Source: a virus
IMG/VR virus record: IMGVR_UViG_3300020470_000203
Coordinates: 1-24,518 of that record
Direction: 5' to 3' (one strand)
Length of the DNA: 24,518 bases
Positions 3 to 24,290 of the stretch are shown here, piece after piece. The first letter of the stretch is position 1, and each line of letters begins with the position of its first letter. Position numbers and translations under genes: made by a program. The notes under the pieces are model-generated. The model saw only the letters and a list, made by a program, of their open reading frames with translations, searched no databases and was not told where the DNA came from.

Positions 3-224
3 TTTTTACGAGGTGAGATAGAAGAAAAAGATTTGAAGATGAGACAAAAGTATAGTGATGATAGTGATTACATTATGAAGTGGTGGAAACCAAAGGCTAT
101 CAAAAGATATTCTAAGTTATTTGATGAAGGTAGACTAAAGCCTGAGAAGTTATTCTACGGAGATATCGTAGGTAAGACTTGGGAAGAAACCAAAGAAATG
201 TATTTAAGTGAGGTAGGTAGATGA
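3..224 (+). CDS. Unknown protein, C-terminal fragment (5' end outside window)
   Basis: The frame is open from the first bases of the window to the TGA at 222-224, so this is the last 73 or so residues of a gene that begins upstream. A TTG at 33 and an ATG at 39 lie inside the open frame, but neither has a clear ribosome binding site and there is no need to start there. The fragment is charged and mostly helical, with a Trp-rich stretch (KWWKPKAIKRY) and a GKTWEETKEMY segment near the end. I do not recognise the family. Its stop overlaps the start of the methyltransferase gene (ATGA), so the two are probably translationally coupled and may belong to the same modification cassette. Confidence 0.6.
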   Translation, partial: FLRGEIEEKDLKMRQKYSDDSDYIMKWWKPKAIKRYSKLFDEGRLKPEKLFYGDIVGKTWEETKEMYLSEVGR

Positions 225-784
225 GAAAAGTATTTTTAGATTGTGGCGCACACAAAGCAACTTCCATCAAGAAGTTCAGAGAAGAGTATCCTAATTCAGG
301 AGACTATGAAATTATTTCATTTGAATGTAATCCAAAATTTAAATCTATATTAGAAAATACAGATGGAATAACATTTCACAATAAGGCTGTTTGGATTAAA
401 GATGGTATAGAAAAATTTTACATTGGACATGGAGCATCTTCTTCTTTGATACACGGAAAAACTCGTGGTAATTTAGATTTTGATAATCCGATTGAAGTGG
501 ATTGTATAGATTTAAGTAAATGGATTACAGAAAATTTTGATAAAGATGATTACATAATTTTAAAGATGGATGTTGAAGGTGCTGAATATAATGTGTTAGA
601 AAAGATGATTGATGAGGGTACTATAAATTATGTTGATAAACTCTATGTAGAGTTTCATGGAATGCGTGTCTTTAAGACAAGAGAAGATACAAAAAAAATT
701 AGAACCGAAATTAGAGGTCGTGGTATACCAGTACATAATTGGGATGCTACGGCAAAGAAACCAATATTAGCAATTAACGAATAG
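221..784 (+). CDS. FkbM-family SAM-dependent methyltransferase
   Basis: A 187-residue Rossmann-type methyltransferase. The SAM-binding loop is seen near the N-terminus (VFLDCGAH, residues 4-11). An acidic strand end follows (ISFECNP, 32-38), and the FkbM hallmark KMDVEGAEYNVL lies at 115-126. FkbM enzymes usually O-methylate sugars or small molecules, often in polysaccharide and glycan clusters; the substrate here cannot be read. The ATG overlaps the previous stop by four bases (ATGA), so translation is probably coupled. The length is close to a bare FkbM domain with no added module. The 738-residue orphan gene and a glycosyltransferase follow on the same strand, which fits methylation of a glycan or of a glycosylated target, but that link is inferred. 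Confidence 0.85.
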   Translation: MRKVFLDCGAHKATSIKKFREEYPNSGDYEIISFECNPKFKSILENTDGITFHNKAVWIKDGIEKFYIGHGASSSLIHGKTRGNLDFDNPIEVDCIDLSKWITENFDKDDYIILKMDVEGAEYNVLEKMIDEGTINYVDKLYVEFHGMRVFKTREDTKKIRTEIRGRGIPVHNWDATAKKPILAINE

Positions 785-792
785 GAAATAAA

Positions 793-3009
793 ATGGAAAC
801 AACTATGACACCAACAAAAATTAGAAAAAATGGTAATACAAAGATAGTAGATATGAAAAGTGGATTTCGTGATAAAGTAACTAAGGTAAACTCTTATGAA
901 GTAGGAGTCAAACCAGATCGAAGGGGTAATGGAATGACAAATAATTTATCAAATGAAATAAAAAGAATTATCATCTATTCAGCTGATGATAAAAACTTAA
1001 TAAGTTTTTTAGAAAAAACACATTCTGAATTATCTAGGTCACAATCTAAATTAACAGTTCCATTCCAAATGGATTTAACTGATGATTCTGTAAAAGAAAT
1101 TTATAAATACTATGACAGTCCAAATACAGCAAAAAATATTGTGGATGAAATTGGACATAGGATTTATATAGTAAGACCTCTTGAACAAACATCAGCTCAA
1201 AGACAAACTGGCGCATACCAACAAACTCAATTGTTTGATACTTTAGAAGGAAACACACTTCCAAATGCTGACATCGTTATTAGGATTGATAAACCATTTA
1301 ATGGCATCACTTATTGTTACGATGGGCAGCATGGTACTCTTACTTCTAAAGATGCTGAAAGTAAAACATTTTACTTAGCTGATACTATTGATGAATTAAA
1401 TAAAAAAGAAACAGAAAGTTACGATTTTACTTATTCTCCAATTTGGACAGATGTTGATAAATTTAGAAAACAATGGAATGAAGAAACATTCACACTTAAA
1501 GACCTATGCTCTTTCAGTAGTGTAATAAGAAACGCAGTTGAATCTGATCAGAAGAGAGTTTTAGTAGGTCAAGTACATTTTACTGATGGTCAGGGAGCAT
1601 CACAATTAATCCGTAAAAGAAATGAACACATTTCATCTCACTCTAATTCTCAAAGGACAAAATCTGAATGTAATGGTACTAAAATTAATGATGTGTTATA
1701 TGATAGAGAATATGAAATAAATGAACCTAATGAGGGTGTTTTTCCTGTCACATTTACTAACAATTCATACGCTTTATCAGAAATAATTCCTAAAATTGAA
1801 TTGTTCAATCAAACCGGTTTGAAAAGGTTTCCAAGTGGAACTATTCCTAAAAAATTCTTTTACAATCTTCGTAGTAAAAATTACGAACTTATGAACTATG
1901 ATCAATACTTGGTTTTTTTCTATAATACATTTTTATCTTTTATAGAAAAGGACAGTGACACAGGAACCTACATCTTCAAAAAACCATCTATGAGTATTAA
2001 TAGCTTACGAAACAATGTTAGTGATTTTAGTTTAGGTGATTTTTGGGCAACATACAGTATTAAGCCTAATGTAGTTGATAAGTGGGTTTCTGTATTTAAA
2101 TCATTAGAATTTGAAGAGGATGAGTTGTTCAATGTAGTTCAAGATTTGATTCATATCGCAAATCATTCTACAAAGAAAACTTTTACAAAAAAACTATCTG
2201 AGTTGAACAATTTGATAAAGCATTGGGCAGATGGTTATAATTCAGATATGAAACAAATACTGAAAGATGCAAATTTAGATGATGAAAAAATGCTTACTGA
2301 TGCTAAAAGGGCGGAATATAAATCTTTAAAAGACGATAGGGAGCGTATAAAGAAACTACTATTTAACACAAAAGATCAATTCATAAACTTAGTTAGATTA
2401 TCTATTCAAACAAAACCATCAACACAATCAATAACAAAGTGGACAGAGGGTATTATAGGTGTTATGATTAGTGGATTCAAAACTTATTATGAGGGTAACT
2501 CATCTTTGTTTTTAGGGGGCTCTACCGGCACACTTCATAGGTTTAATAATATAGATAAAGTTTTCTTAAACAAAGCTTTTGTAGATAAAGTAAAAGAAGA
2601 AACTACATCATCTGATACAAGTCTTTGGTCTCGTAGCGAAGGTAAAAAGTATCTAGATATTTTGGGATTTGAAGGAATAAATTTGTATTATTGTCACCAT
2701 TCCAAAGGATATGTTACAATCGAAAATTTTGAAAGTCATCACTTGTCCTTTCGCAGTAAGAATCCTCAGAAAAAATTTGAATTTTGGTTTCCTCTCTCTT
2801 CAAAGTACAATAACTATATTAGTGACGATGAAGAAAAAAACATCGTTAATGATGGTGGAAATTTTATAGATGCTTGTAAGTTTATGTTAAAGCAATCTGA
2901 AACTGAGAGAGATCTTACAGATGATGACAATTTGTACGATATCTATGAGGATAATATTTCTACTTTTAAAAAGTGGATTCGTAAAGCAGAAAGACATTTA
3001 GGAGTTTAA
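793..3009 (+). CDS. Large orphan protein with a DGQH motif; function unknown
   Basis: A 738-residue soluble protein that I do not recognise. It starts at an ATG preceded by GGAAATAAA. The N-terminal third carries YCYDGQHGTLT (about residues 175-185), placed after a region rich in predicted strands. This recalls the DGQHR/DGQQR signature of ParB/Srx-like, DndB-type and DUF262 (GmrS) proteins, but the usual Arg after DGQH is Gly. A second segment, HFTDGQGASQLIRKRNEHIS (about 263-282), has a similar DGQ. The central part (about 420-560) is helical and Lys-rich. The C-terminal part has a possible HH/Cys cluster (LYYCHHSKGY, about 635-644). No signal peptide or membrane segment is visible. It lies between a methyltransferase and a glycosyltransferase gene. 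A role in DNA modification or defence is a guess from the weak motif and the context. Confidence 0.5.
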   Translation: METTMTPTKIRKNGNTKIVDMKSGFRDKVTKVNSYEVGVKPDRRGNGMTNNLSNEIKRIIIYSADDKNLISFLEKTHSELSRSQSKLTVPFQMDLTDDSVKEIYKYYDSPNTAKNIVDEIGHRIYIVRPLEQTSAQRQTGAYQQTQLFDTLEGNTLPNADIVIRIDKPFNGITYCYDGQHGTLTSKDAESKTFYLADTIDELNKKETESYDFTYSPIWTDVDKFRKQWNEETFTLKDLCSFSSVIRNAVESDQKRVLVGQVHFTDGQGASQLIRKRNEHISSHSNSQRTKSECNGTKINDVLYDREYEINEPNEGVFPVTFTNNSYALSEIIPKIELFNQTGLKRFPSGTIPKKFFYNLRSKNYELMNYDQYLVFFYNTFLSFIEKDSDTGTYIFKKPSMSINSLRNNVSDFSLGDFWATYSIKPNVVDKWVSVFKSLEFEEDELFNVVQDLIHIANHSTKKTFTKKLSELNNLIKHWADGYNSDMKQILKDANLDDEKMLTDAKRAEYKSLKDDRERIKKLLFNTKDQFINLVRLSIQTKPSTQSITKWTEGIIGVMISGFKTYYEGNSSLFLGGSTGTLHRFNNIDKVFLNKAFVDKVKEETTSSDTSLWSRSEGKKYLDILGFEGINLYYCHHSKGYVTIENFESHHLSFRSKNPQKKFEFWFPLSSKYNNYISDDEEKNIVNDGGNFIDACKFMLKQSETERDLTDDDNLYDIYEDNISTFKKWIRKAERHLGV

Positions 3010-3011
3010 GT

Positions 3012-4349
3012 ATGGGAATACATTTTGACTATGGTGATGGTGATATCGAGTATAAATTTCGAGCTCTTATTTATCCAAACATAACTTTACAAAGTGACTT
3101 TTCTAAAGATAGTTATTATATTATAATGTCTAAGATATTAAAGGAATTGACAAAAATAAGGTTTGATACTTTTTTTACTGTTTTAACTCCTGAAAAAATG
3201 CCAGGCTTCCAATATGATAATACGGAACAAATAATATATAAACAGCCATCTTATCCAAATAAAATGAGACAAGACTTTCAAACGGAGCAGTTAGATAAGA
3301 TAATAGACTATAAAAAGAATGATTGGGATTTTGTTTATTGTTATTTACCAGAACATGCGGAACGACTTGATAATTATTTTAAGAATCTAACCAATTGTAG
3401 ACCTGTTATATTTGGTTATAGTGCTTATATAGAAATTCCAGCAACAACAAAATATGAAGCTAATTTATTGTATAGTCATTATGCTGGATTAATTAAAATG
3501 AATAGTTGTGGTGTAAACTCTCAAGCAGTAAAAGACACTATTATGGAACACGCACCAAGTTGTTTACCCAAAGATGATGTTAAAAAACTAGAAAGTATTT
3601 TACAACCATTACCTAGAGGCTGGGATAATGTGGAAGGGAAACGAAAGAAACCACAAACAGACCCTAAAGTAATTGTGTGGAATCATAGGCCAAATACTTA
3701 CAAAGGTTATGGTTGGTTTTTGAAACAGATGGATGAACTATGGGAACAAAGAAAAGATTTTAAAGTGTGGGTGCCGCTTTCATATACAGTAGAGAGAGAA
3801 TATATTTACAATAAAAAGTTTGATAGACAAGGATACTTTACAGAATTATCTAAGTGTTGGGTTGGCGTGTGTGGTCAATCACTTCATACAGGTTGGGCTA
3901 ATTCTGCTTCTGATGGTATGGCGGTTGGTGTACCTTATATCTTTTATGATGCTGATTACTATGAACAATATGCTAAAGATGCTGGTATATATTTTAAAAA
4001 AGATGATGAATTTATGAACGAAGTGAATAAAATATTGGATGATAAAACACATAGAAATGAATATTCTACTAAATGTAAAAAATTAGGAAAAGAAAATACT
4101 TGGAAAAGTGTAACACCACAATATAATGAACACTTTCTATTAGCAGAAAAAGAATTAAGAATGGTAAAAGAAACAACAGATGGGTATAAAAGAATATTGA
4201 ATTACATTCATAAAAAAGAACAGGTAACTAAAGAACATCTATTAGATTATCTTGGTTGGGGTAGAGGAATACCTTTTGATATCTATAGAAATAGACTTAG
4301 AGAAGAGCCAACAATTAAATTAACAAAAATCGGTTATGAGGTTAGATAA
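3012..4349 (+). CDS. GT-B-like glycosyltransferase with possible C-terminal winged helix
   Basis: 445 residues; AGGAG lies just upstream of the ATG. The N-terminal half looks like a Rossmann domain that would bind the acceptor. The second domain opens with KVIVWNHRPNTYKGYGWF (about 219-236), a strand-loop-helix typical of the nucleotide-sugar-binding half of GT-B enzymes. HTGWANSASDGMAVGVPYIF (about 292-311) follows, which matches the acidic-residue/Gly loop where GT4-like enzymes hold the sugar donor. The last 55 residues or so (about 390-445) read like a separate winged helix, with helices, then YRNRLRE, and a wing-like TIKLTKIGYEVR. A DNA-binding tail would suit a transferase acting on phage DNA, as T4 glucosyltransferases do, but virion or host glycan targets remain possible. 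The stop abuts the start of the HD gene. Confidence 0.75.
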   Translation: MGIHFDYGDGDIEYKFRALIYPNITLQSDFSKDSYYIIMSKILKELTKIRFDTFFTVLTPEKMPGFQYDNTEQIIYKQPSYPNKMRQDFQTEQLDKIIDYKKNDWDFVYCYLPEHAERLDNYFKNLTNCRPVIFGYSAYIEIPATTKYEANLLYSHYAGLIKMNSCGVNSQAVKDTIMEHAPSCLPKDDVKKLESILQPLPRGWDNVEGKRKKPQTDPKVIVWNHRPNTYKGYGWFLKQMDELWEQRKDFKVWVPLSYTVEREYIYNKKFDRQGYFTELSKCWVGVCGQSLHTGWANSASDGMAVGVPYIFYDADYYEQYAKDAGIYFKKDDEFMNEVNKILDDKTHRNEYSTKCKKLGKENTWKSVTPQYNEHFLLAEKELRMVKETTDGYKRILNYIHKKEQVTKEHLLDYLGWGRGIPFDIYRNRLREEPTIKLTKIGYEVR

Positions 4350-5129
4350 ATGAAACAACTTACAGAACAACAAATAGTAGAGAATTGGAATAAGTTAATA
4401 CAACTTATAGAAGATACCTTTTCAGGTGAAAGAAAAGAGAAACTCTTAGAGATGTATAAATACTTTGAGGATAGAATGTCAGTAGCACCAGCTAGTGGAA
4501 AAGCCGCATATCATAATGCTATGGTAGGTGGGTATGTAGAGCATGTATTGCATGTAACTGAACTAGCTCTTCAAATTAAAGAGTTGTGGAAGTCTAATGG
4601 CGCCACCATCAACTTCACCGATGAAGAACTTATCTTCGCTGCTTTACATCACGACTTAGGTAAGGTTGGTGACTTAGATAAAGATTATTATATACCACAA
4701 GACTCCGAATGGCATCGTAAGAATAGAGGTGAAATATTTAAACATAATCCTGATCTTCAATACATGACCGTTACCGATAGAGCAATTTATCTTCTTAATC
4801 ATTTCGGTATCCAAATGTCTCAATGGGAGTATATCGGATTACGTTTAACTGATGGTTTATATGAGGAAGCAAATAAATCTTATTACATATCTTACAATCC
4901 TGATTGGAGTTTAAAAAGTAATATAGCGTATATACTTCACCAAGCGGATTCTATGGCAACACACATCGAAGGTGACGAATGGAAACGAGCAGATGAAGAA
5001 TTTAATACTAATCTAACTACCAATATGAAAAAAGCAGTAGAACCAAAAACTGAAACTAAACAACCATCACCTAAATTAAGTGAAAAGTCACAAGATTTAT
5101 TTGATGAACTTTTTGGAGATAAAAAATGA
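4350..5129 (+). CDS. HD-domain phosphohydrolase
   Basis: A 259-residue HD-superfamily metal-dependent phosphohydrolase. The metal ligands are visible: His65 in GGYVEHVLHV, the His101-Asp102 doublet in AALHHDLGKVGD, and a distal Asp200 in HQADSMATH. Such enzymes cleave phosphoesters of nucleotides or nucleic acids; the substrate is not readable. After the domain (up to about residue 215) comes a linker rich in Lys, Glu, Thr and Pro, then a short hydrophobic tail SQDLFDELFGDKK. That tail resembles the C-terminal peptides by which T4-type proteins dock on the sliding clamp. The gene begins immediately after the previous stop and its own stop overlaps the next start (ATGA). It therefore leads the run that ends in the late sigma factor. 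Confidence 0.85.
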   Translation: MKQLTEQQIVENWNKLIQLIEDTFSGERKEKLLEMYKYFEDRMSVAPASGKAAYHNAMVGGYVEHVLHVTELALQIKELWKSNGATINFTDEELIFAALHHDLGKVGDLDKDYYIPQDSEWHRKNRGEIFKHNPDLQYMTVTDRAIYLLNHFGIQMSQWEYIGLRLTDGLYEEANKSYYISYNPDWSLKSNIAYILHQADSMATHIEGDEWKRADEEFNTNLTTNMKKAVEPKTETKQPSPKLSEKSQDLFDELFGDKK

Positions 5130-5386
5130 TTCTGGAAATAAGTCTTGTATTTATGGTCCTTTTATTTGTAATTTCCAGTTATATAATATGGAACTTAAAT
5201 AAAAAGTTAGAATTATTAGAAGGTTGGGTAGAACAATTTATACAAGTAATAGATAGAGTAAATAGGGATTTGAAACAAGCAGATTACAGAGGTTCATTTG
5301 AATCAGATGATGAAGTGGGTTTCATATTCAAAGAAATTAAAAACACAATAAAACAACTAGATAGGTTTAGAGGAGAAGAACAATAA
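5126..5386 (+). CDS. Small one-pass membrane protein
   Basis: 86 residues. The N-terminus is one hydrophobic segment (about residues 3-22, rich in Ile, Leu, Val and Phe), followed by a Lys/Asn stop-transfer turn. The rest is an amphipathic, probably coiled-coil helix ending with DYRGSFESDDEVGFIFKEIK. Type I or III topology is likely, with the charged part in the cytoplasm. The gene is locked between its neighbours: ATG overlaps the HD stop (ATGA) and its TAA overlaps the sigma start (TAATG). GGAGATAAAA precedes the start. I know similar small conserved proteins of unknown function from T4-like marine phages, but I cannot name a role. It is too small and too membrane-bound to be an obvious gp33 co-activator. 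Confidence 0.75.
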   Translation: MILEISLVFMVLLFVISSYIIWNLNKKLELLEGWVEQFIQVIDRVNRDLKQADYRGSFESDDEVGFIFKEIKNTIKQLDRFRGEEQ

Positions 5387-6147
5387 TGCCATCAGCACAA
5401 GTATCAGGTTCATCAGTTAAGAAAACTCGTAAGAGAAAAAAGAAAAAGAAAAATTATTACTTTCACGAAGGTACTGAGAAAGCAATAATCAGATATAATA
5501 ATAGTGATGATCCAGTCTTAAAGAATAAGATATATAATGAACATATTAAATTTGCTTTTGATAAATTAGCAGAAAATATAATTCATACATTTAAATTTTA
5601 CTACTTTGATTCTGGTTCAGAAGAAGTAAAAAATGAAGTGGTTTCTTTCTTAGTTATGAATATGCACAAATTCAAAGAAGGTAAGGGAAAAGCTTTTTCA
5701 TACTTTAGTATTGTAGCTAAAAACTATCTGATTCTTAACAATAATAAGAATTATAAGATGGGTAAAATTCATCACAAAATAGATGTATTAGATTATAAAA
5801 GAAATATTATAGGCGAAGTTAGTGGTAGAGATAGAGATGAAGTTAATAATCTTTTTGTAGATGAATTAATCAGATTTTGGGAACACAACTTACCAGCAGT
5901 ATTTAGAAGAGAAAAAGATATTAAGATAGCTGACTCTGTATTACATATGTTTAGAATGAAAGAGAATATCGAAAACTTCAACAAAAAAGCACTTTACATT
6001 CTCATCCGAGAAATGACAGGTGCTAACACACAACACATCACAAGAATAGTAAATGTAATGAAGAAATATAATAAAAGATTGATTACCGAATTTGAAAGAG
6101 ATGGTGCTGTTGATTTATCTTATACCGGCTCTTTAATTAGAGAATAA
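5386..6147 (+). CDS. 55: gp55-like sigma factor for late transcription
   Basis: 253 residues. The segment from about 24 to 124 matches the plan of T4 gp55 and sigma-70 region 2. It has a helix that would hold core polymerase, then HKFKEGKGKAFSYFSIVAKN (94-113), equivalent to the regions 2.3-2.4 that melt and read the -10 element. The tail from about 200 to 232 (NKKALYILIREMTGANTQHI and on) looks like a helix-turn-helix of region-4 type. T4 gp55 is shorter (about 185 residues) and ends in a sliding-clamp-binding peptide, which I do not see here. Residues 12-22 are almost all Lys and Arg. GAGGAG lies upstream of the ATG. Last gene of its run; a strong terminator follows. The TATAAATA sites near 6453-6501 are the natural targets. 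Confidence 0.78.
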   Translation: MPSAQVSGSSVKKTRKRKKKKKNYYFHEGTEKAIIRYNNSDDPVLKNKIYNEHIKFAFDKLAENIIHTFKFYYFDSGSEEVKNEVVSFLVMNMHKFKEGKGKAFSYFSIVAKNYLILNNNKNYKMGKIHHKIDVLDYKRNIIGEVSGRDRDEVNNLFVDELIRFWEHNLPAVFRREKDIKIADSVLHMFRMKENIENFNKKALYILIREMTGANTQHITRIVNVMKKYNKRLITEFERDGAVDLSYTGSLIRE

Positions 6148-6186: not shown

Positions 6187-6408
6187 CTACTTACGGAACA
6201 AACCCACCAACACCAACAACGCGACGAGTCCAGCGAAACCAGATTCGCCGAATGTGTTTATGATTGATGTCAGGTTACCAATAACGTTGACGCCAAAGAC
6301 ACCACTTCCAAAAATTACTTCGGATATAGCACCGATAGCTACAAAAGACATCATAAGATGAGCTAAATCATCTATGTAGCCTTTTACCATTGTTATTATT
6401 TCCTTCAT
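6187..6408 (-). CDS. Small hydrophobic protein on the minus strand, two membrane segments
   Basis: 73 residues, the only convincing minus-strand gene. On that strand GGAG sits 8 bases before the ATG, and a T4-late-type TATAAATATC lies about 85 bases upstream. The protein has a short charged N-terminus, a hydrophobic segment from about 16 to 40 broken by Glu30, a polar GNLTSIINTFGESG stretch, and a second hydrophobic helix (about 58-71) ending in Arg-Lys. Two membrane passes are likely. Its G+C content is about 40 percent (90 of 222 bases), against about 28 percent in the first 120 bases of the next gene. It could be a holin-like protein, a membrane effector or a small virion protein; nothing decides between them. 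It converges on the terminator at 6150-6175. Confidence 0.8.
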   Translation of the reverse strand: MKEIITMVKGYIDDLAHLMMSFVAIGAISEVIFGSGVFGVNVIGNLTSIINTFGESGFAGLVALLVLVGLFRK

Positions 6409-8951: not shown

Positions 8952-9437
8952 ATGGCAAAATCAAGTAAACTTGCAAATCTAATTAAAGAATTAGTTAAGC
9001 AAGAGGTTAAAAAACAAGTAACTGAGATATTTATTAAAGAAGGTATAAAGTCTATGACTGAAAATGCATCTAAAAATGATGTAATGGAAGTGTTACCTCA
9101 AAGAAAACCCAAACCTAAAAAAGAAGTTACTTACACTAAAAATCCTGTATTGAATGATATTCTTAACGAAACAGCAAATGCTGGAACTGATGAATTTGAT
9201 GAGTATCCTACAATGACTGGTAAACCTTTTGATAGTACAAGAATGGCTGAGGCTATAGGGTATGGTAATATGACTATTGGTGATGCTGAAAGTCGTAGAA
9301 AACAAGCTGCTATACAAACTGCACAAGCAATAGGAGCTGATACAAACAATGAAGCAGTTCAGAATGTAATGCAGGACTTAACAAAAGATTACAGAGGTGT
9401 AATGAAAGCATTAGATAAAAAAGATGGAAAAATATAA
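8952..9437 (+). CDS. Hypothetical structural or assembly protein before gp25
   Basis: 161 residues, beginning after AATAGGAGTCAATT. The N-terminal 30 residues are a Lys-rich amphipathic helix, followed by a basic, Pro-containing linker (RKPKPKKEVTY, about 51-61). The middle is low in hydrophobics, and the C-terminal helix ends DLTKDYRGVMKALDKKDGKI. No catalytic motif, membrane segment or Cys is visible. Its stop overlaps the gp25 start (TAATG), so it is probably made together with the wedge proteins. I have the impression of similar short proteins beside wedge genes of T4-like marine phages, but I cannot name one. A virion or assembly role is inferred from position only. Confidence 0.7.
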   Translation: MAKSSKLANLIKELVKQEVKKQVTEIFIKEGIKSMTENASKNDVMEVLPQRKPKPKKEVTYTKNPVLNDILNETANAGTDEFDEYPTMTGKPFDSTRMAEAIGYGNMTIGDAESRRKQAAIQTAQAIGADTNNEAVQNVMQDLTKDYRGVMKALDKKDGKI

Positions 9438-9910
9438 TGTCTAACTTAGAAAAAGATTTAAATCCAAATACTTTTATAGGTATTAGTTTACCTTTATCGC
9501 ATGGTTCAAAAGGATTTTTTGGTCAAACAAAAACTACTTTACAACAAGCACGACATAATATAAAAAATCTTTTACTAACTATGAAAGGTGAAAGATTAGG
9601 AAATCCTACTTTTGGTAGTGATTTAATGAGAGTAGTTTTTGAGCAAGATGATAATCTTATTGAGGATAAAATTGAAGAAGCTATAAGAGAAGCTATGGAT
9701 AATTGGCTACCTTTTATAACATTAGCGGAAATTAAAACTGAACGTGATCATAACGCATTATCAAATAGAGTAATTGTTAAATTAAAATTTACAATGAATA
9801 TGGATCAAAATGTACAATCTGTAACATTGAATTTAGGACCTGATGCTCCATTTAGTGAATATGAAGTAAGTGATGTGGATACGGGTGAATATGTTACAGA
9901 TTATACATAA
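9437..9910 (+). CDS. 25: gp25-like baseplate wedge protein (GPW/gp25 family)
   Basis: 157 residues, the usual size or slightly long for this family. The family core is plain: QARHNIKNLLLTMKGERLG leads into NPTFGSDLMRVVFEQDDN (about residues 36-73), where the GER and the N-x-x-FG-S/C-x-L loop are the hallmarks. It continues with a helix (IEDKIEEAIREAMDNWLPFI) and then strands. Although some members are labelled lysozyme, gp25 is structural: it sits at the junction of baseplate and sheath and primes sheath polymerisation. The start overlaps the previous stop, and gp6 follows 16 bases later, the classic wedge partnership. Confidence 0.92.
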   Translation: MSNLEKDLNPNTFIGISLPLSHGSKGFFGQTKTTLQQARHNIKNLLLTMKGERLGNPTFGSDLMRVVFEQDDNLIEDKIEEAIREAMDNWLPFITLAEIKTERDHNALSNRVIVKLKFTMNMDQNVQSVTLNLGPDAPFSEYEVSDVDTGEYVTDYT

Positions 9911-22074: not shown

Positions 22075-23073
22075 ATGTTTAAGAGACTAGACCCAACCGA
22101 TGTAGACAAAACTCCATTTAAAGTATATAAAGAGTTTACTGTTACCAATAACGACAGCGGTAGTGGTGTATATAATTTTAGAGCTATAAGTGGAAGCCGT
22201 CTTAATTTTATGACATCAAGTGCTGATGTAAAACACTACCCATCTGCTTCATTTTATTCGTTACCATCTTACTTTATGATAAACAATAGATATTACAGAC
22301 AAACAAAACCTGGTGTTAGAAGAACAGTCGTAAATCCTTATAATAATTTTGCATCAAATAATCCCGATCAATATAGAATGCTACACCAATCAGCTTCTAT
22401 AATTGCAATAAGTAAAACTATGTATGGTGAAAGAATGAAACCTAATTCCATAAGGTTAATAGATGATAGCACTTCTGATACTGTAACGATGGTTGATGAT
22501 GGGAAGGGTAATCTTTATGATTTAAGTGTATCTTCTAGTTTTGCTAAATTTGCAAGTCATAGTTTCAGCGATGATTATAAGATAGATGAAACAGGTAGTT
22601 TTGCAGGTAATATTTTTTATGAAGAGGGGGTTTTAGTAATAACAAATACAGGATCAAAATTTGTAGATGTTGGAACTAAAGTTGGTACTGATGGATTTTC
22701 TTTAGAATATAAAGCTCAAATAACATTAAATGAATATTCATATACTTGTATTGTTGGTGAAAATGAATTTAACTCATCTACTAATATATCTACTACATTT
22801 CAGAGAAGTGGTAGTATAAATGTTTCAGGTTCTGATAGCTGGAGATTCTTTCCACCTGGTGACGCAGCAAATAAATCTGGTTCATACAAACATTCATACG
22901 AACAGGCTACTAGATATGAAGCATTCACAACACATTCAGAGTTTCAACCTTATATTACTAAGATAGGATTGTACAATGATTTTGATGAATTAATTGCTAT
23001 TGGACAATTATCTGCTCCAATAAAAAACGATAGAGATTTGGCATTAGGTTTCGTAGTGAGGTTTGATGCGTAA
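22075..23073 (+). CDS. Fibre/baseplate decoration protein, second paralogue
   Basis: 332 residues, again Ser-rich and beta-type. It parallels the preceding protein in order: VYKEFTV near the start; AISKTMYGERMKPNSIRLID; a strand-rich centre; YTCIVGENEFNSSTN; and the terminal ITKIGLYNDFDELIAIGQL. Compared with its neighbour it adds an N-terminal MFKRLDPTDVDKTPF segment and lacks the Gly-rich loop. GGGAG precedes the ATG. The stop overlaps the start of the peptidase gene (TAATG). A role as fibre or adhesin subunit is inferred from context and sequence style. Divergence of two adjacent copies is common for proteins that contact variable host surfaces. Confidence 0.72.
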   Translation: MFKRLDPTDVDKTPFKVYKEFTVTNNDSGSGVYNFRAISGSRLNFMTSSADVKHYPSASFYSLPSYFMINNRYYRQTKPGVRRTVVNPYNNFASNNPDQYRMLHQSASIIAISKTMYGERMKPNSIRLIDDSTSDTVTMVDDGKGNLYDLSVSSSFAKFASHSFSDDYKIDETGSFAGNIFYEEGVLVITNTGSKFVDVGTKVGTDGFSLEYKAQITLNEYSYTCIVGENEFNSSTNISTTFQRSGSINVSGSDSWRFFPPGDAANKSGSYKHSYEQATRYEAFTTHSEFQPYITKIGLYNDFDELIAIGQLSAPIKNDRDLALGFVVRFDA

Positions 23074-23798
23074 TGGGTAAGTTTAAGAAAATGATGGAAG
23101 TATCCTCTAATATTGGTGGGTATGGTGCTGACGATGGTGAACCAGATACAGGATTTATCAGAGGAAATAAAAAAAGAACTTTGGGTACATTGGCTGGTAA
23201 ACCTGAACCTTGGTTTGAAAGGGGTGGATATGAGCAAGTAAATTTTCCTAAAGCTGATTACATTTATGGTAAGGGTGAAGAAGAAGATTTTGCTGTAAAG
23301 AAAACTGCTTATATAGCACAGATAGATAAAGATTTTGAAGCACATTTTGAAAAATGGGAAGAGTGGATTCCTGATGAAGATTTTGAAGAACAAAATACAC
23401 TTAAAGAAACAGGTTATAAAAAAGCTATGAAAAATATATTATTGGAAAGAATGGATTATTTAGAAACTGCTAAACAATTAGTTAAGAAATATAATTTAAA
23501 ATCCAAAGTAAAGATTGGTACTGGCAAAAACTTCGGAGAGTATATTCCTGAAACGGATACCATTACATTAAGACCATCTTATAAATCAGTTAAAGAATTC
23601 TTAATGACTGTATTACACGAAATACAACATGCTTTAGATGCTGATAGATTAGGAGTGAGAAAGTATATTAAAAAATATACACAGGCTGGTACGATGGCTA
23701 ATTATCATGGATTAGATCCACATGATGATAATAAGTGGGAAGAGAAGGCAGAAAGGTTTGCAGAAAAAGAAGTAAAAAAATATTTGAATAATAAATAA
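23073..23798 (+). CDS. HExxH zinc metallopeptidase
   Basis: 241 residues. The zinc site is HEIQH at 182-186 in a hydrophobic helix (FLMTVLHEIQHALDADRLG), preceded by an edge strand (DTITLRPSY). The third ligand is probably Glu223 or Glu224 in WEEKAERFAEKEV, an ExxAxxFA pattern like that of ImmA/IrrE-type peptidases. The first 130 residues are unrelated to that fold: they are charged, start with a Gly-rich GGYGADDGEP segment, and could be a substrate or virion anchor. No signal peptide is seen. It overlaps the stop of the last fibre gene, so it is made late. It could cleave a virion protein, or enter the host and cut a regulator; the sequence does not choose. Confidence 0.75.
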   Translation: MGKFKKMMEVSSNIGGYGADDGEPDTGFIRGNKKRTLGTLAGKPEPWFERGGYEQVNFPKADYIYGKGEEEDFAVKKTAYIAQIDKDFEAHFEKWEEWIPDEDFEEQNTLKETGYKKAMKNILLERMDYLETAKQLVKKYNLKSKVKIGTGKNFGEYIPETDTITLRPSYKSVKEFLMTVLHEIQHALDADRLGVRKYIKKYTQAGTMANYHGLDPHDDNKWEEKAERFAEKEVKKYLNNK

Positions 23799-23936: not shown

Positions 23937-24290
23937 ATGAAATCAAGAAGTGCCAAGAATAAAGGCAAAAGACTTCAGAACTCTGTAAGAGATCTTTTGT
24001 TAGAAACATTCAATCAGTTAGAACCCGATGACATTCGTTCAGCAATTATGGGAGAATCTGGAGAAGATATTAAGTTATCACCAGCAGCTCGAAAACTCAT
24101 TCCTTATTCATTTGAATGTAAGAATCAAGAAAAATTAAATATATGGGATTCATTAAACCAAGCCGAAGAAAATAGTGGTGATTACAGTCCTGTTTTGATA
24201 TTTAAAAGAAACAGAAGTAAAACATACGCTGTACTTAATATTGAAAAATTTATAGAGCTGATAAATGAAAATAGTAAATCTACTAAATAG
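23937..24290 (+). CDS. PD-(D/E)XK nuclease, Holliday-junction-resolvase-like
   Basis: 117 residues. A basic N-terminus (KSRSAKNKGKRLQNSVRDLL) leads to the nuclease core: GESGEDIKLSPAAR (about 39-52) with Asp44, then FECKNQEKLNIW (59-70) with the Glu60-x-Lys62 pair, and a later strand PVLIFKRNRSKTYAVL. This is the PD-(D/E)XK order, and the form is like small archaeal-type or phage resolvases (Hjc, VRR-NUC relatives). It probably cuts branched DNA in recombination or packaging, in place of T4 gp49, which has a different fold. The ATG has no Shine-Dalgarno and follows iterated ACAAGTA repeats. The end overlaps the primase start by 26 bases. Confidence 0.72.
   Translation: MKSRSAKNKGKRLQNSVRDLLLETFNQLEPDDIRSAIMGESGEDIKLSPAARKLIPYSFECKNQEKLNIWDSLNQAEENSGDYSPVLIFKRNRSKTYAVLNIEKFIELINENSKSTK

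Follow-up and report, generated by a model that had tools for sequence, protein, structure and literature searches.

The stretch of DNA analysed here (the window) comprises 24,518 nucleotides, positions 1 to 24,518 of the IMG/VR virus record IMGVR_UViG_3300020470_000203, and derives from a virus that we take to be T4-like, judged from its gene content. It encodes a glycosyltransferase with a C-terminal winged helix, here called GT-WH, which lies between two variable genes on one side and an HD-domain phosphohydrolase gene on the other (Table 1). The upstream end of the window cuts a gene of the DruA family (DUF4338); the fragment is identified by homology to a gene of the closest relative, L125, which itself matches DruA at E 5.1e-26, and is read as the 5' end of the island in which GT-WH resides. 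Downstream follow a backbone gene, the product of which is presumably gp55-like (late sigma), and tail and baseplate genes.

Table 1. Features of the window and divergent glycosyltransferases located ahead of HD genes in relatives
Feature	Position	Strand	Details and basis
DruA (DUF4338), 3' end, cut by window start	3..224	+	homology to L125:2446-3636
FkbM-type methyltransferase, exchangeable gene 1	221..784	+	Pfam Methyltransf_21, E 2.9e-14
738-aa protein, exchangeable gene 2	793..3009	+	no Pfam family
GT-WH, glycosyltransferase (GT-B) with C-terminal winged helix	3012..4349	+	445 aa, ATG start, coordinates include stop
GT-B catalytic core (predicted), residues ~13/14-382	3051..4157	+	structural match 7qsg_A, Z 29.7
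NHR-x4-K donor-side motif, residues 225-231	3684..3704	+	alignment of 22 relatives
GW-x5-DGM-x2-G motif region, residues 294-306	3891..3929	+	sits where the GT4 EX7E motif is expected
Winged-helix tail (predicted), residues 389-445	4176..4346	+	AlphaFold2 full-length, AlphaFold2 tail alone, structural matches
Predicted recognition-helix stretch, residues 423-430	4278..4301	+	AlphaFold2 and invariant residues in 28 relatives
HD-domain phosphohydrolase	4350..5129	+	HD, E 1.6e-5
Backbone gene labelled gp55-like	5386..6147	+	no library match below E 0.015
gp25-family baseplate wedge protein	9437-9910		Pfam
Divergent glycosyltransferase before HD	L251:2964-4409		
Divergent glycosyltransferase before HD	L252:794-2239		
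Divergent glycosyltransferase before HD	L256:1882-3381		
Divergent glycosyltransferase before HD	L262:3-992		
Divergent glycosyltransferase before HD	L269:4294-5745		

The first-pass annotation had described the protein as a GT-B-like enzyme ending in a winged helix, and structure prediction bears out both parts. The AlphaFold2 model of the full-length protein, built on an alignment of 22 sequences, has a mean pLDDT of 86.4 and a pTM of 0.83 and contains the two Rossmann-like domains of the GT-B fold. Structural comparison of the model places the methylmannose polysaccharide mannosyltransferase 7qsg_A first (Z 29.7 over 335 residues at 3.3 A), followed, among others, by BshA, MshA and PimA (Z 26.0-27.2). 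As modelled, core residues ~14-382 adopt a GT-B fold closest to these GT4 enzymes, from which GT-WH differs by an identity of 8-14 percent among the matches listed, by an altered EX7E site and by the added winged helix. The Pfam family Glycos_transf_1 is matched weakly by the window copy (E 2.4e-4; 21.1 bits, under the curated cut-off of 26.4) and over the C-terminal half of the glycosyltransferase only; it is found at E <= 1 in 19 of the 22 aligned relatives, with a best value of 6.9e-8. Matches in PHROGs are confined to weak glycosyltransferase families, and searches of PDB sequences with profiles of the glycosyltransferase and of the tail gave no credible match.

Residues N224, H225, R226 and K231 show no variation across the 22 aligned relatives, and we take this NHR-x4-K motif to be the phosphate-binding R/K pair of GT4 enzymes. 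For the second motif region the comparison is made with EX7E, which we take as the GT4 motif: its second position, D301, is invariant in the same alignment, and its first Glu is absent, being replaced by T, K, A or G. Because this Glu is missing, the sugar donor may be unusual or the enzyme may be inactive.

In the full-length model the tail block has a pLDDT of ~87-95 and consists of the elements H390-402, E404-406, H407-414, H423-429, E435-438 and E441-444, the helix-strand-helix-helix-strand-strand order of a winged helix (H1-S1-H2-H3-S2-S3 with wing). When the tail is modelled by itself the order is identical (pLDDT 84.9). The best structural matches are TFIIE-beta (7o4i_X, Z 7.8, 56 residues, 1.7 A) and, with an equal score, Z-beta of DAI (4ka4_B, 56 residues, 1.8 A); the C-terminal winged helix of SelB with SECIS RNA is also found (1wsu_A, Z 7.4, 58 residues, 1.9 A). 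Many solved winged helices match at Z 6.9-7.8 over 53-59 residues, values below 8 lying in the range that the tool calls common, and the best Foldseek hit has an E of 0.094, which is weak taken alone. For these two reasons the fold assignment draws on the predicted topology together with the consistency of the match list, and on these grounds the C-terminal residues ~389-445 are confirmed as a predicted winged helix. The match list mixes DNA-, RNA- and protein-binding winged helices.

Invariant tail residues in 28 relatives include W416, G417, Y425, R426, N427, L429, R430, T438 and Y442, of which R426, N427 and R430 are located on or beside the predicted third helix. The mean net charge is +6.9 in 54 distinct tails versus -7.8 in 36 cores; in a wider set of 142 tails the mean is +5.5 (range -2 to 12), and the window copy, with +3, has the weakest charge of the 54-tail set. 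The tail is usually basic and the core acidic, and the tail is a putative nucleic-acid-binding domain. Estimates of dN/dS are 0.10-0.25 for the tail in four of six pairs, one of the other two having no tail changes and one being saturated, and 0.06-0.16 for the core in five of the six, which indicates purifying selection on both parts.

Relatives were collected from IMG/VR by scans with glycosyltransferase alignments (26 loci) and by a tail-only search (182 confirmed relatives, 80 kept, the remaining 102 not included). The more distant clade II was reached via GTDB MAG contigs and yielded 400 confirmed IMG/VR glycosyltransferase relatives, of which 80 were kept; the 182 and the 400 may overlap. 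The two deeply diverged clades align end to end, tail included (hhalign E 1.5e-96). Viral and MAG contigs supplied 147 distinct relatives with a length of 300 aa or more, and 142 of them carry the tail motif. All 238 matches of the tail HMM among 5,507 ORFs are glycosyltransferase-family proteins, each of 12 contigs carries a single tail, and 73 tail ORFs at the 80 kept tail loci also match the glycosyltransferase core, the other seven being fragments that the contig end truncates to 145 aa or less. The idea that the tail is a module common to other proteins was rejected, as it was found on this family only, and by this distribution the tail is confirmed to be no chance fusion. GT-WH thus defines a conserved family of glycosyltransferases with a winged helix, previously unlisted in the libraries searched, and its carriers are uncultured marine viruses of bacteria; tblastn with four queries found no relative in a phage-record collection of 50,697 records. 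In the open-access literature no phage DNA-modification enzyme was found in which a glycosyltransferase is fused to a winged helix or HTH, subscription papers lying outside the scope of the search.

The five exceptions among the 147 are divergent glycosyltransferases with another C-terminus, situated at the HD-linked site and with no DruA in view, only one of these loci having 4 kb of upstream sequence. They measure 482-500 aa where complete (L262 is cut). As their C-terminus differs, a glycosyltransferase can occupy the HD-linked slot without a winged helix, and it is possible that they are functional replacements of GT-WH. A fold search of BFVD delivered A0A6J5M983, a 366-aa relative with 28 percent identity, which is too short to hold the tail as well. 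In a further pair of loci with near-identical neighbourhoods, about 28 linker residues between core and tail are lost in frame in L010:7965-9239 compared with L018:7965-9323, and the winged helix is retained.

GT-WH usually closes a hypervariable island, the layout being DruA, zero to three exchangeable genes, GT-WH. DruA is located upstream within 3 kb of 85 of 142 distinct tailed glycosyltransferases (largest distance 2,903 nt) and downstream of three; it is absent from seven with at least 4 kb of upstream sequence in view, and for 47 too little upstream sequence is present to judge. The resulting association of 88 in 95 is to be read as an upper bound, since loci with DruA were included at any upstream length. 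Exactly one DruA is present in 13 of 16 large contigs searched, in all 13 cases on the same strand as GT-WH and, by locus coordinates, upstream within ~3.1 kb; since the contigs are related, these are not 13 independent events. The contigs without DruA are G003, which ends inside the glycosyltransferase gene, G015 and G016. The pair persists across sites: in clade I it precedes the HD and gp55-like genes, in L025 and L041 it adjoins a polymerase-like gene, and other clade II members have it elsewhere. The preceding gene is overlapped or ends within 10 nt in 112 of the 128 cases with a plus-strand ORF in view upstream. Nothing lies between DruA and GT-WH in 21 of 83 islands. At the HD site, the space between DruA and the following fixed gene contains one or more genes in 35 of 39 islands that have the glycosyltransferase, versus one of six that lack it (Fisher p 6e-4, relatedness not corrected for).

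The 102 exchangeable proteins form 39 blast clusters, and nuclease and modification genes are among those exchanged between the fixed genes. Pfam assigns them to 33 overlapping families, from 25 of which the following counts are taken. Among nuclease and modification families these are GmrSD_N 13, Mom 7, HNH 5, N6_N4_Mtase 4, HNH_5 3, and two each of MethyltransfD12, Endonuclease_7, ResIII and HNH_4; sugar-related families are CTP_transf_like (5) and Glycos_transf_1 (2), and the single-member families listed include TAGT, FkbM and replication genes of the gp44 and gp45 kind. PADLOC reports NsnA 12, REase_II 9, PD-T4-2_A 7 and MTase_II 4 among the 102, versus none of these four among 104 of the 128 called ORFs of the 165-kb contig G001, a member of the same group that served as control after exclusion of island ORFs and of proteins below 120 or above 1000 aa. 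For NsnA the difference corresponds to a Fisher p of 1.5e-4, relatedness not corrected for. TIR-type and Pycsar-cyclase-type PADLOC matches were noted among the control ORFs.

Ten island proteins were checked individually against Pfam, which identified Mom (L041, E 5.4e-45), TAGT (L023, E 7.7e-11), a cytidylyltransferase (L163) and an HATPase (L081); the other six have no Pfam family, and three of these, read by eye, are possible restriction nucleases. The TAGT gene lies directly upstream of GT-WH in L023, and another TAGT is present in contig G016. The gene order in L041 is Mom, Mom, GT-WH, an 838-aa protein, a 231-aa protein and DruA, where we read the 838-aa and 231-aa proteins as DNA polymerase and sliding clamp. 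Mom was found in 9 of 19 contigs. Pairs or triplets of Mom genes near replication-type genes occur in L041 (2235-2993 and 2977-3777), G001, G002, G004, G011, G018 and G019, and a side reading is that these phages have multiple momylation enzymes each. Five clade II loci (L163, L171, L176, L181 and L193) show a small cytidylyltransferase-like gene, for example L163:4853-5239, before a gene of ~410-490 aa and the glycosyltransferase; its product could make an activated donor.

The candidates for nuclease or modification genes within the window are the end of DruA, the FkbM methyltransferase and the 738-aa protein, the latter resembling only faintly (hhalign probability 17, E 0.0015, DGQH/DGQQR region) the GmrSD_N/DUF262 proteins that occupy the equivalent place in relatives. 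In L125, the glycosyltransferase of which is 94 percent identical, DruA is followed by a 720-aa homologue of this protein with no FkbM gene between them. The HD, small and gp55-like genes stay in place at the site. A role of the HD phosphohydrolase in shaping the nucleotide pool for the glycosyltransferase, considered in the first-pass annotation, found no support: 41 of 73 distinct HD loci have the glycosyltransferase, 13 lack it in spite of upstream room and 19 are too short. Because HD persists without the glycosyltransferase it belongs to the backbone of the site, and it was rejected as a specific partner.

The same annotation had drawn a parallel to the glycosylation of T4 DNA. The alpha- and beta-glucosyltransferases of T4 have a GT-B fold. 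Like GT-WH, the T4 enzymes (PF11440, PF09198) are phage-encoded; GT-WH differs from them in having no sequence match to either Pfam family, in its own domain of DNA-binding type and in the lack of a hydroxymethylase in 29 contigs. The Pfam families listed with E <= 1, whether for the window copy or for the 22 members, include neither AGT nor T4-Gluco-transf nor PF20691 (TAGT); T4 AGT is also outside the best 50 structural matches listed for the core, which is uninformative either way. TAGT (TET-associated glycosyltransferase / beta-glucosyl-HMC-alpha-glucosyltransferase) is described as a proven family of phage DNA glycosyltransferases (PMC13216743) and, although it adjoins GT-WH in L023, is a separate protein family. 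By the sequence tests made, GT-WH falls outside the T4 and TAGT families. The thymidylate synthase/dCMP hydroxymethylase family (PF00303) was detected in the positive controls and in none of 29 contigs, Tet_JBP in none of 12 (run without positive control) and C5 DNA methylase in none of 20, whereas ThyX is present in 4 of 19. Because all contigs are fragments, absence of enzymes for hydroxylated bases is no proof; as no enzyme making a hydroxylated acceptor was found, a T4-style hydroxymethyl route appears unlikely, and the acceptor is probably not hydroxymethylcytosine. Of the parallel to T4, the GT-B enzyme, the winged-helix tail and a genomic context pointing to DNA stand, and the T4 chemistry does not. 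A sugar O-linked directly to cytosine with no hydroxymethyl bridge is reported for phage Thanatos, which, however, has a protein of the thymidylate synthase family (PMC12838424).

Our preferred reading, with a probability of roughly 0.5, is that GT-WH serves a phage-borne restriction/modification island as a glycosyltransferase of DNA (nucleic acid). The GT4-like enzyme would act on nucleic acid, the DNA of the phage itself being the likeliest substrate. Its core would take an activated sugar, a step for which the fold is the sole ground, and the winged helix would hold the enzyme on DNA, comparable to T4 alpha-glucosyltransferase, which is brought to DNA through binding of the gp45 clamp (PMC13216743). 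GT-WH would then be the most constant transferase of a hypervariable conflict island running from DruA over exchangeable nuclease, methylase or Mom genes to GT-WH; plausibly it would mark or shield phage DNA, with the exchangeable enzymes directed at other DNA, which they would attack or mark. Because a domain of DNA-gripping type is combined with an island rich in DNA-cutting and DNA-marking genes, GT-WH may add a sugar to DNA by an undescribed route.

DNA is favoured by the tail, by the restriction and modification company, by the Mom genes and polymerase-like context of L041 and by the TAGT gene beside GT-WH. Against it stand that no known source of hydroxylated bases was found and that proteins, too, can be the partners of winged helices (the tail matches include cullin WHB and ScpB). 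Further points against it are that the EX7E site lacks its first Glu, that the exchangeable genes are mixed, some being sugar-related (glycosyltransferase, cytidylyltransferase), replicative or of no known kind, that a quarter of the islands counted above (21 of 83) are empty, that five glycosyltransferases at the same site have no winged helix, and that the 738-aa neighbour in the window is only faintly GmrSD-like.

Phage glycosyltransferases that glycosylate capsids or tails are known. GT-WH might accordingly glycosylate a protein (a virion subunit, or a phage or host protein of replication or transcription) or a host surface glycan, with the winged helix as a protein contact or incidental. 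The window copy and clade I are located just ahead of tail and baseplate genes (the gp25-family gene at 9437-9910), the nearest core structures are GT4 enzymes acting on small molecules, lipids and polysaccharides, and winged helices can serve as protein-binding modules; elsewhere, however, the family has Mom genes and a putative DNA polymerase gene as neighbours, the tail is basic, and in G001 the tail occurs on GT-WH only, a cluster read from sequence as sugar metabolism and glycosyltransferases forming a separate block ~120 kb off. We regard a protein or glycan target as unlikely, if worth serious attention. That the enzyme acts elsewhere and the winged helix is an operator-binding domain controlling the island promoter, as in BirA or restriction controller proteins, is quite unlikely: the repressors BirA, ROK and CggR, which join winged helices to enzymes, are among the tail matches, and the glycosyltransferase closes a restriction-like operon with the tight spacing noted above, but one invariant tail is kept though the other island genes and the upstream DNA change.

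An RNA target, with the winged helix binding RNA as in SelB and the enzyme decorating tRNA or mRNA, would agree with the SelB-SECIS match of the tail and with the NHR-x4-K motif, which in our view recalls queuosine-tRNA glycosyltransferases. The exchangeable neighbours are DNA enzymes, however, and the window contains no tRNA, and we find this reading very improbable. No more credible is a selfish or decayed passenger, in which case GT-WH would be a conserved border of a recombination hotspot and share no function with the island genes. The empty islands and the hypervariable content would suit a passenger; purifying selection on core and tail, the company of DruA at different genomic sites and the excess of intervening genes in islands with the glycosyltransferase at the HD site speak against it.

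Within the preferred reading of a DNA glycosyltransferase, a more specific and doubtful proposal is that GT-WH and DruA together are the fixed half of a phage-borne, modular restriction system in marine T4-like phages. Jointly they would install a sugar-bearing, non-hydroxymethyl DNA modification that protects phage DNA, for example by glycosylation of an acylated or directly hydroxylated base, DruA being GNAT-like, while dozens of swapped-in nucleases, methylases or Mom enzymes would attack or mark competing DNA. The published annotation of DUF4338 is that of a GNAT acetyltransferase domain (PMC10853773). The family is that of Druantia DruA (PF14236), present here as a single phage gene. A likeness exists to jumbo phages, in which momylation is paired with an endonuclease and was proposed to combine self-protection with attack on host or superinfecting DNA (PMC7824862); Mom is present in phages with GT-WH too. 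In jumbo phages Mom is fused to the nuclease, whereas in the GT-WH islands the genes are separate and exchangeable between DruA and GT-WH, and the section on momylation in that source names no glycosyltransferase (PMC7824862).

Few routes of phage DNA glycosylation are known, most of them starting from hydroxymethyl or from a hydroxyl made by TET. The large family described here combines a glycosyltransferase with its own winged helix and stays in the company of DruA and rotating restriction-like genes, and it is this neighbourhood that is new. If GT-WH acts on DNA, a new base modification awaits in abundant marine phages, and DruA, the role of which in Druantia is not explained in the portions of the literature covered, gains a testable partner. 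Should GT-WH not act on DNA, the island would still offer a ready catalogue of nucleases and modification enzymes carried by phages.

Some further observations concern relatives and flanks. The sugar block of G001 (L115-L123, 135-162 kb) comprises ~25 genes with the look of sugar-metabolism and glycosyltransferase genes (epimerase, isomerase, transketolase-like, acetyltransferase) and resembles a phage-carried surface-polysaccharide cluster. In the same contig, the start of a 912-aa protein (123599-126337) looks by eye like the carboxypeptidase-regulatory-like / TonB-receptor type, a hint at a Bacteroidota-like host. Glycosyltransferases of Arthrobacter phage Kitkat, a lead from BFVD, gave only weak profile comparisons (hhalign probability 1 and 51) and are at best possible tail homologues. 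These proteins, gp88 and gp93 (L134:41767-43272 and 44232-45698; 501 and 488 aa), are GT-B-like with C-terminal extensions, one with a WG...YLRRAL stretch like the tail motif, and the Kitkat genome also has ParB-like nuclease and methyltransferase genes. In the window, a 73-aa ORF on the minus strand (6187-6408), a membrane protein by its look, recurs at the same place in several relatives. The product of 23073-23798 is metallopeptidase-like and weakly matches (E 0.0017) a PHROG named anti-restriction protein; positions 23937-24290 encode a RusA-like resolvase / PDDEXK protein (phrog_244, E 2.6e-20).
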